From: Trueperaceae bacterium
Lineage (GTDB): Bacteria; Deinococcota; Deinococci; Deinococcales; Trueperaceae
NCBI GenBank assembly: GCA_030147925.1
Contig: JASBUK010000136.1
Location: forward strand, 1-36,202
Length of the DNA: 36,202 nucleotides
Direction of reading: 5' to 3'
A model generated the notes under the pieces. That model was not told the DNA's origin and did no database searches. It saw nothing but the letters and a program-made list of their open reading frames with translations. Position numbers and translations under genes: made by a program. Numbering within the stretch: position 1 is the first letter of the stretch; each line of letters starts with the position of its first letter. Of this stretch, positions 33,930 to 35,382 are shown one piece after another.

Positions 33930-34022
33930 TTAAATCAAGCAGGGCCGAGCGTCACCTTGTTGCTCATAGTCTTCGGTCGGGTTTAGCCGAACGCGGTAAA
34001 CCTCACCGCGACGAAGAATCAC
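33930..34022 (-). pseudogene. Truncated MazF/PemK-type toxin
   Basis: A GTG at 34022 overlaps the stop of the antitoxin gene and opens a 30-codon frame containing RRGEVYRVRLNPTE and EQQGDARPCLI, followed by TAA. This is the N-terminus of MazF/PemK mRNA interferases, which are about 110 residues long. After the stop, no continuation of the family is seen in any frame down to the SURF1 gene. The catalytic C-terminal part is lost. The toxin is inactive unless a different downstream sequence completes it. Confidence 0.8.
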
Positions 34023-34270
34023 TCACGTAGCAGCGCGGCAAAGTCTCTTATGCCTTGTTCCGCCTCAGCTTTTTCGGCCTCGCGATCCAGTTTCAGGACT
34101 TCCGCTTCAATGAGTGCATCCACCCGCTCACGCAACAACTTTTTAGCAGCGGCTTCAAAGGCTGCCGAACGACTCTCATAACTACCTGATTCGACCAGTT
34201 CGTCGATTTCGCTAACGATGGCATTTGGCAGTGTGGCACTGACTTTGGTGCGGCGTGCGTTTGTGTTCAT
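34019..34270 (-). CDS. Ribbon-helix-helix antitoxin (MazE-like)
   Basis: This 83-residue protein has a ribbon-helix-helix DNA-binding N-terminus (TKVSATLPNAIVSEIDELVESGSYESRSAAFEAAAKKLL) and an acidic, Glu/Ala-rich helical tail typical of antitoxins that wrap the toxin. AGAGG precedes ATG at 34270. It overlaps the toxin start, so the pair was a translationally coupled module. It now stands as an orphan antitoxin. Confidence 0.85.
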   Translation of the reverse strand: MNTNARRTKVSATLPNAIVSEIDELVESGSYESRSAAFEAAAKKLLRERVDALIEAEVLKLDREAEKAEAEQGIRDFAALLRE

Positions 34271-34407: not shown

Positions 34408-34602
34408 TTAATATTTTAACCCCAACGCCTGCTTAAGCACCTGCCCAATCTCTTTAGCACTCATCTCCTTAAGGCGCTCGTGCAGCTCCCGACTGCCGCG
34501 GATGCGCACCGGCCTTGAGACTTCGCCCTCAGCCAATTTTTCAACCCCAAGCGTGTGCGGGTTTGGCCTGAGTCCTTTGGTATTGGGATTGGGATTAGGC
34601 AA
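34408..34602 (-). CDS. Hypothetical protein, 64 residues (third gene of a small operon)
   Basis: I do not recognise this protein. It starts with a Pro/Asn-rich segment (MPNPNPNTKGLRPNPHTLG) from a TTG codon at 34602 with AAGGA upstream. It ends in a helical part (SRELHERLKEMSAKEIGQVLKQALGLKY). It overlaps the preceding gene by eight bases, which is the main support for translation. Confidence 0.55.
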   Translation of the reverse strand: MPNPNPNTKGLRPNPHTLGVEKLAEGEVSRPVRIRGSRELHERLKEMSAKEIGQVLKQALGLKY

Positions 34603-34828
34603 GAATTTCCTTCTCGACCAATCGATCTAAATGTTCTCTTAACTGTTCGCTATGAACAGCTAAATGAGCGATTGAACCGTATAAATCACCTTCGACTTCA
34701 TCCCGCTCATCCCCAGCTGGGAGAGTCTTTAAACGCTTAAGGATAGCAAGATAGTGCTTTGCTTCGTCAGCTAACTCTTTAAGAAGCGTATCTTCGGTTT
34801 GTCGACCATAACTAAGTAGATTTTTCAT
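34595..34828 (-). CDS. Hypothetical helical protein, 77 residues (second gene of a small operon)
   Basis: This small protein is almost wholly alpha-helical and charged (EDTLLKELADEAKHYLAILKRLKTL, then LYGSIAHLAVHSEQLREHLDRLVEKE). No family is recognised. AGGAGG lies six bases before ATG at 34828, and the start overlaps the stop of the preceding gene (TAATG). A toxin-antitoxin or phage-derived module is possible because of the neighbouring antitoxin. Confidence 0.6.
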   Translation of the reverse strand: MKNLLSYGRQTEDTLLKELADEAKHYLAILKRLKTLPAGDERDEVEGDLYGSIAHLAVHSEQLREHLDRLVEKEILA

Positions 34829-35079
34829 TACTTACCTCCTGGGAGTTTAGCACGCTTGCGGGCAACGGTCTTTTTCCAGGTCTCAATCTCCTTTGCCCAA
34901 TGAAGGATGGAACCTTCATCAGGGTTGGGGTTTTTCATCTCCGCAGCAATCTTGTCGAAATGCTCGGCAATGTTGGCTTCAAGGCTTTTGATTTGTTTGC
35001 GGAGCCGCTTATTTTCACTTATGTTTAAATTATATAACAGCGTGTAACGCGTTGTCAAGAGATTAAGTATGAAAATCAT
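34828..35079 (-). CDS. Hypothetical protein with uncertain start (first gene of a small operon)
   Basis: The open frame gives 83 residues, but a near-perfect promoter lies across its first 50 bases, so the start is doubtful. The part after the promoter is helical (ENKRLRKQIKSLEANIAEHFDKIAAEM) and ends WAKEIETWKKTVARKRAKL. The first normal start codon after the expected transcript start is ATG at 34938, which would leave 36 residues. Either the gene begins upstream and the promoter is internal, or translation uses an unusual codon, or the short form is real. No family is recognised. Confidence 0.45.
   Translation of the reverse strand: MIFILNLLTTRYTLLYNLNISENKRLRKQIKSLEANIAEHFDKIAAEMKNPNPDEGSILHWAKEIETWKKTVARKRAKLPGGK
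35029..35058 (-). promoter_or_regulatory. Consensus sigma-70 type promoter
   Basis: On the minus strand TTGACA (35053-35058) and TATAAT (35029-35034) are separated by 18 bases. Both hexamers are exact. It drives the three small genes towards 34408. The start point should fall near 35020. Confidence 0.8.
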
Positions 35080-35105
35080 TCACCGTCCTGCTCATCGGTC
35101 AAACT

Positions 35106-35231
35106 ATGGCAGCGTCAATCGAGGCCGTAATATATCATCATCCCCTCGAGCGCTGGCAGCTATGGGTAATTTTGATATTGGTTGCGGGTCTTCTGGCGCT
35201 GGTCGAGGTGCAGTTGCCGAGTATGCTGTAG
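35106..35231 (+). CDS. Possible 41-residue membrane protein
   Basis: A frame from ATG at 35106 encodes an N-terminal polar part with YHHPLERWQ, a membrane helix (LWVILILVAGLLALVEV) and a short tail ending at TAG. No ribosome site precedes the ATG. It could be a real small membrane protein, the tail of a decayed gene, or chance. A competing frame from 35069 has a Gly/Ser-rich, less protein-like product. Confidence 0.25.
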   Translation: MAASIEAVIYHHPLERWQLWVILILVAGLLALVEVQLPSML

Positions 35232-35269
35232 ATTTTATTTTAGGTAATATAGTGCTTTTATAGTACATG

Positions 35270-35305: not shown

Positions 35306-35382
35306 TGGTGGGCCCTGTAGGACTTGAACCTACGACCAATCGATTATGAGTCGACTGCTCTAACCAACTGAGCTAAGGGCCC
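35306..35382 (-). tRNA. tRNA with CAU anticodon, probably tRNA-Ile2 (lysidine-modified)
   Basis: A 77-base cloverleaf with acceptor stem GGGCCC/GGGCCC, D-arm AGCTCAGTTGGTTAGAGC, anticodon loop CTCATAA and T-arm with GGTTCAAGTCC is encoded, including 3' CCA. The anticodon is CAU. The body (GACTCATAATCG, then TTGGTCG) is much closer to E. coli tRNA-Ile2 than to elongator Met tRNA, so it should read AUA after TilS modification. Initiator identity is excluded because the acceptor begins with a paired G. Confidence 0.85.

Follow-up and report, generated by a model that had tools for sequence, protein, structure and literature searches.

A promoter inside an open frame of a Trueperaceae genome points to a misread start in a possible phage-associated, toxin–antitoxin-like module

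Three small overlapping genes on the reverse strand of a 36,202-nucleotide stretch of a contig from a Trueperaceae bacterium (hereafter the window) appear to be headed by a promoter that lies inside the first of them, raising the question of where this gene starts and to what kind of module it belongs. The original prediction had described an exact TTGACA-18-TATAAT promoter and three genes overlapping by 1 and 8 bases, and both descriptions were borne out, the promoter by 12 of 12 consensus bases and the overlaps by the coordinates of the frames (Table 1). Promoter-like sites of any quality amounted to 5 in the region, compared to a mean of 1.6 (sd 1.5) for shuffled sequences, and exact TTGACA/TATAAT pairs with a spacer of 16 to 18 were found 4 times in the 2.98-Mb genome, compared to once for a reversed control pattern. 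An open frame divergent from ORF1 (35069-35263, forward strand) was considered as an amidase remnant and rejected, as it matched nothing in Pfam, PHROG, or phage records. A direct repeat of 12 nt between the tRNA-Met and the junction of ORF2 and ORF3 was taken as chance, with about 0.2 exact 12-mers expected in 2.5 kb. Farther downstream, a cut-down PemK/MazF-like toxin gene, the PF02452 match of which covers profile positions 1-26 of 109, adjoins an open ribbon-helix-helix (RHH) antitoxin gene.

Table 1. Features of the three-gene locus and its neighbours in the window.
Feature	Position	Strand	Basis or remark
ORF1 frame	35079-34828	-	83-aa open frame
ORF1 conserved part, 64-aa basic protein, putative toxin	34828..35022	-	homologs in two phyla
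ORF1 in-frame extension from ATG 35079, best read as promoter DNA	35023..35079	-	position where homology starts; stop in the matching stretch of the second copy
ORF2, 77-aa acidic predicted helical hairpin, putative antitoxin	34595..34828	-	
ORF3, 64 aa, integrase-associated family, putative regulator or recombination factor	34408..34602	-	
Promoter TTGACA-N18-TATAAT, probable leaderless transcript	35029..35058	-	TATAAT ends 6 nt before ATA
ATA codon at the ORF1 start position of homologs	35020..35022	-	alignment, start-codon table, ATG in second copy
RHH-type antitoxin, separate neighbour	34019..34270	-	PF01402, E 6e-4, just under cut-off
PemK/MazF-like toxin fragment, truncated, 30 aa	33930..34022	-	PF02452, E 2e-4, just under cut-off
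tRNA-Met, 3' end towards module	35306..35382	-	

It had also been predicted that no normal start codon follows the promoter for about 80 bases, and the next in-frame ATG is indeed codon 48 of 83 (34938), 84 bases past the ATA at 35022. That the promoter cuts into the first gene did not hold up, however, since the position at which homologs start corresponds to this ATA, 6 nt after TATAAT. When the 83-aa frame was searched against 61 genomes, 5 of 7 non-self matches began at residues 18-20, and the remaining two started at residue 6 and residue 9. A second copy in the same genome, in which the promoter DNA is also similar, accounts for one of these two early-starting alignments. The start codon of most relatives aligns with residue 20 of the frame, where the window reads ATA. 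An open ORF1 frame was found at 48 of 61 tabulated places, with ATG, GTG, or TTG at the start codon or a neighbouring codon in 42 of them. The window belongs to the 6 without a standard start at or next to this codon, its nearest in-frame TTG falling in the -35 box; the 5 others comprise the frameshifted ORF1 of G064, 3 whose TTG lies 2 to 6 codons upstream, and 1 with none. An open ORF1 frame without a standard start nearby is found in G161:C55. In the second copy (contig C151), TATAAT is followed after 6 nt by ATG, compared to ATA after the same distance in the window, and the stretch matching the upstream extension of ORF1 carries a stop. With homology starting at residues 18-20 and ATA at the start codon of the homologs, the first 19 residues of the 83-aa frame are best read as promoter DNA, and the apparent oddity of a promoter inside a gene has an ordinary cause, namely a misread start.

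This spacing is in line with a layout common in Deinococcus-Thermus (PMC12340547), in which a -10 element placed about 6-7 bp ahead of the open reading frame gives rise to a leaderless mRNA. Both copies share this layout, with 6 nt to ATA in the window and 6 nt to ATG in the second copy. The window differs from such leaderless genes in having an exact -35 box as well, and in carrying ATA where a standard start codon is expected at the 5' end. Promoters of ORF3 homologs are arranged likewise: TANNNT stands exactly 6 nt before ATG in 15 of 18 with an in-frame ATG (19 viewed), and 2 matches were obtained at any other spacing from 0 to 20. Lacking a standard start codon for ORF1, the window copy is unlikely to be fully active.

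As the original prediction implied, all 3 frames have homologs. A profile search of 111 genomes of the window's phylum identified ORF1 in 29 and, after a match in one Bipolaricaulota contig had led us to search that phylum, in 10 of 100 Bipolaricaulota genomes, one of which has 7 ORF1 matches (one a fragment); a search starting from ORF2 identified it in 34 of the 111 genomes. At 57 of 61 places in the two phyla, an open ORF2 adjoins ORF1 in the same orientation, following it at 50 and preceding it, in swapped order, at 7. The small genes are thus kept adjacent and co-oriented, as is the case for type II toxin–antitoxins. An earlier scan, using an ORF2 profile grown on the same loci that were later scored with it, had given 55 of 58 places, with no antisense ORF2 match at E 0.05 among 2946 frames. 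This 58-place scan left out 7 of 38 ORF1 rows of the window's phylum and 1 of 28 Bipolaricaulota rows (the second half of one locus); 3 of the 7 were added in the 61-place table, 3 were examined later, and G055:C43 lies at a contig edge and cannot be judged.

Pairwise distances of ORF1 and ORF2 correlate with r 0.67 (0 of 2000 permutations), as computed over 38 of the 58 places, in which at least 45 aa of each protein were available, and within genomes the correlation, based on 19 comparisons, was reached in 35 of 2000 permutations. The mean net charge is +9.9 for ORF1 and -7.8 for ORF2, and the signs are opposite in 44 of 46 pairs. Among three relatives, dN/dS was 0.04-0.26 for ORF1 (the lowest value resting on a saturated dS) and 0.28-0.34 for ORF2, with ORF1 constrained at least as much as ORF2; in a second, nearly identical trio, ORF1 showed 0-3 nonsynonymous and no synonymous changes, which is too close to judge. 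Given the low dN/dS in the three relatives, both proteins look real and under selection.

The third gene does not belong to this conserved unit. While all three had originally been proposed as one possible module, ORF3 adjoins ORF1-ORF2 in none of the 111 genomes compared except this one, where it does so in both copies. The ORF3 family is found in 25 of these genomes (41 rows), and an integrase gene follows the ORF3 homolog at 13 of 19 loci viewed, with Pfam phage-integrase domains in 10 of 10 such following genes tested. In this respect, ORF3 homologs resemble the small genes that precede tyrosine integrases in the position of an excisionase or repressor, a likeness from which the window and the second copy depart, as no integrase was noticed beside ORF3 in either. 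A single-sequence AlphaFold2 model of ORF3 contains two confident helices (residues 36-44 and 48-59; mean pLDDT 71), and the protein matched no DNA-binding family, nothing in Pfam, and nothing convincing in the PDB. An assignment of ORF3 as an RHH protein found no support: 0 of 18 members match an RHH model at E 0.1, no RHH chain was found in the PDB, the model consists of helices only, and Foldseek returned none (a 14-residue match to a designed protein, E 0.006, was ignored). Type II toxin–antitoxins regulate themselves through a promoter operator; inverted repeats in the promoters of the window (p 0.78) and of the second copy (p 0.27) do not exceed those of shuffled sequences, and in 2 of 17 ORF3 promoters of relatives the p value falls below 0.05 (L108, p 0.018; L119, p 0.003). 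The repeat in L108 (G081), ATACAACG..CGTTGTAT, precedes an ORF3-integrase operon, has ACAACG in common with both promoters of this genome, and is a possible ORF3 operator. Counting the operator motif in the genome was uninformative, with 9 matches versus 19 for a reversed control.

The settings in which the pair occurs elsewhere include proviruses. At 5 loci (L046, L047, L050, L055, and L060), it lies near a packaging ATPase that is 69-80% identical to those of the Thermus phages P23-77, IN93, or Tsatsa (the family of the first two is written 'Matshushitaviridae' in records), and 3 of these provirus loci match records titled Thermaceae. In 2 of the 5, L046 and L060, the ATPase is accompanied by both major capsid proteins related to P23-77 as well as by related lysis genes. 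L047 combines the related ATPase with one capsid protein, L050 and L055 contain the related ATPase without a capsid match in the stretch examined, and matches to virus genes are fewer in these three. The three cultivated phages compared differ from these loci in carrying neither ORF1 nor ORF2, and no such virus gene was noticed in the window. The pair stands before the ATPase in 2 of the provirus loci and after it in 3; because of these two positions and its absence from the three phages, it looks like cargo that was inserted into proviruses more than once. A PIN-domain gene is also located near the packaging ATPase in L047.

Another setting is provided by 17 genomes of one genus, which we infer to be Thermus, in which the pair is present in the gap between two host-like genes in 9 and absent in 8. 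Within the 9 occupied gaps, the pair is decayed in one and ORF1 is broken in 2 more. From reading their proteins, we take the flanking genes to be glyS and asd. The three relatives for which dN/dS is given above belong to these genomes. In several genomes that lack the pair (L144, L145, L146, and L148), the same gap holds a small gene that, in our reading, resembles DUF4926, making this gap a possible slot for small modules. Genes of known toxin–antitoxins (CcdB, Phd, DUF5615, HicB-like, ParE, and PIN) were noticed near some places, but we put no weight on them.

The breakage of the pair is one-sided. Among 65 places (38 from the window's phylum and 27 Bipolaricaulota loci), 13 have an open ORF2 next to an ORF1 that is truncated or is interrupted by a stop or frameshift. 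The reverse, an intact ORF1 beside a broken ORF2, was seen at 0 places by eye, compared to 2 that the script scored as ORF1 open without ORF2 (G012 and G084). In G012 (G012:C1:348345-348536; L037, L065), the ORF1 homolog leads into a repeat array and is missing its end, with no ORF2 found, and this place was counted by eye, like G159:C31, as having lost both genes; in G084, which was set aside by eye, an open frame missed by the ORF2 profile follows ORF1. The repeat array in G012 looks CRISPR-like. Of the 13 one-sided losses, 11 were scored by the script, G064 by eye (the script had scored it as open), and G102:C64 in a later check; they include G001, for which the ORF2 match is weak (E 0.03), as well as G082 and G075, which have lost the front half of ORF1. 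No judgement is possible for 2 of the 65 places, G062:C63 probably does not represent a genuine ORF1, and in the window copy the start codon alone is changed. Searching from ORF2 revealed 8 further places with ORF2 open and ORF1 absent or a remnant, and 2 with both broken. These counts leave out G009 and G077:C17 (both unclear), as well as G016 second, G014, G000:C139, and G044:C198, and the 8 include two weaker matches (G072:C14 and G071:C33) and two places that look like one shared event (G092 and G104). If lesions were distributed by length alone (64 versus about 80 codons), all 13 of 13 would fall in ORF1 with a probability of about 3 in 100,000, and 13 of 15 with about 1 in 1000, values that shared ancestry of some lesions would raise. 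In type II toxin–antitoxins, a toxin may be lost with its antitoxin retained, rather than the other way round, and the asymmetry fits the pattern expected if ORF1 were a toxin and ORF2 its antitoxin. It would also arise if ORF2 has the more important, lasting function.

Neither protein could be placed in a known family with the libraries searched. AlphaFold2 predicts for ORF2 two long helices arranged as a hairpin (mean pLDDT 88), and ORF1, judged from its sequence alone, looks like a helical hairpin as well, with no recognisable motif. No convincing match to ORF1 or ORF2 was obtained in Pfam, NCBIfam, PADLOC, PHROGs, or PDB sequences, searched with sets of members that differed between libraries; the best library match was to FliT for two ORF2 members (E 4e-4, under its cut-off), and no known toxin or antitoxin family was matched in these libraries. 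Fold searches with the ORF2 model returned helical hairpins of a generic kind, and no hit reached E 0.001. Scanning viral contigs for patterns, an approach that reaches close relatives only, yielded no relative of ORF1 or ORF2; in phage records, the best E values were 5 and 2 for ORF1, 0.2 for ORF2, and 2 for ORF3, and among plasmids the best for ORF3 was 0.3. In the plasmid search, a match of one Bipolaricaulota ORF1 to the end of a large DNRLRE protein in Cytobacillus (E 8e-6) was taken as coiled-coil resemblance. Among the papers listed in searches on related phages, phyla, leaderless genes, and toxin–antitoxins, no title or abstract describes the pair, which leaves room for a description elsewhere in print.

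The state of this genome can be judged from its second three-gene set (contig C151; L064 6318-8105), which has a similar promoter. There, ORF1 is frameshifted, compared to the ATA start in the window, while ORF2 and ORF3 are open in both copies, a state most simply explained by the putative toxin having been disarmed on two occasions and the other two genes having been kept. The second copy lies beside a truncated GH108 endolysin gene (PF05838, E 9e-13), ParE-like and HTH genes, and a tRNA-Arg, and is probably an island remnant. Both copies are located downstream of a tRNA 3' end, and no integrase was noticed by eye among the frames neighbouring them; we infer that both are remnants of integrated elements that have lost their integrase. 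Between the two copies of ORF3, dN is 0.36 and dS 1.55, corresponding to about 30 synonymous and about 40 nonsynonymous changes.

Taken together, we assign a probability of about one half to the reading in which this stretch represents what is left of a mobile module associated with phages, transcribed into a leaderless mRNA and built around an ORF1-ORF2 core that is most likely type II toxin–antitoxin-like. It builds on computed homology, pairing, phage and host-gene settings, purifying selection in relatives, one-sided breakage, and leaderless spacing. We do not go beyond one half because a lasting function of ORF2 alone would produce the same asymmetry. Of the original suggestion of a new toxin–antitoxin module, the two-gene core is favoured by the conserved pair, its one-sided breakage, the opposite charges, and the phage and island context, and a conserved three-gene unit is not supported. 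According to this toxin–antitoxin-like reading, ORF2 would bind and neutralise ORF1, which would be harmful when free; ORF3 would stem from the integrase operon of temperate elements and probably act as a regulator or recombination factor; and the change of the ORF1 start to ATA would leave little or no ORF1 being made, with ORF2 and ORF3 staying open. Somewhat more tentatively, and with slightly less than an even chance, the pair may represent an unnamed family that couples a basic toxin with an acidic antitoxin, both of them helical hairpins, and that is distributed over Deinococcota, Bipolaricaulota, and P23-77-like viruses, with up to 7 copies per genome (one a fragment) and order-swapped versions, the window copy having been disarmed by an ATG-to-ATA change. 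Hha–TomB is a helical pair of a basic and an acidic protein, and, like it and type II toxin–antitoxins, ORF1-ORF2 consists of small adjacent or overlapping genes with basic and acidic products, a mobile distribution, and one-sided partner loss. It differs from them in that neither protein has a convincing family match and that the toxicity of ORF1 is a prediction.

That the pair is kept between the same host genes across species, in 9 of 17 genomes, is unlike a purely selfish module and speaks against a toxin–antitoxin. It would suit an accessory complex of phages and islands that is non-toxic and made of two subunits, for instance a regulator, an anti-defence or an exclusion factor, of which ORF2 matters and ORF1 is dispensable. 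Such a complex would also accommodate the two different sites that the pair occupies in related proviruses close to packaging and lysis genes, the 8 places with ORF2 but not ORF1, and the purifying selection on both genes. A dispensable subunit is not predicted to be constrained at least as much as its partner, however, as ORF1 is in the three relatives, and no intact ORF1 was seen beside a broken ORF2 once G012 and G084 had been set aside by eye, and we consider this complex rather unlikely. Similarly doubtful is the view of the window copy as an inert leftover of a prophage or island, with a dead ORF1 and with ORF2 and ORF3 simply yet to decay. The ATA start, the frameshift in the second copy, the truncated MazF-like toxin nearby, the truncated endolysin beside the second copy, and the failure to notice an integrase by eye among neighbouring frames would all be expected of such a remnant, but the dN and dS of ORF3 suggest selection after the copies parted, and promoter and spacing are kept in both. 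We regard it as improbable, to a clearly greater degree, that full ORF1 is made, with translation starting either at the AUA of the leaderless mRNA or, given a longer transcript, at ATG 35079. While the frame is open from 35079 and AUA stands at the exact leaderless start position, the large majority of open ORF1 frames (42 of 48) use ATG, GTG, or TTG at or next to that codon, and a transcript from the exact promoter cannot include ATG 35079.

The window exemplifies how a called frame in a genome with leaderless genes can swallow its own promoter. Should the toxin–antitoxin-like reading be correct, ORF1-ORF2 would constitute a family that is missing from the libraries searched and is carried by tailless phages of the P23-77 kind as well as by two bacterial phyla, and the repeated loss of ORF1 alone provides a direct and cheap prediction that this gene is harmful.
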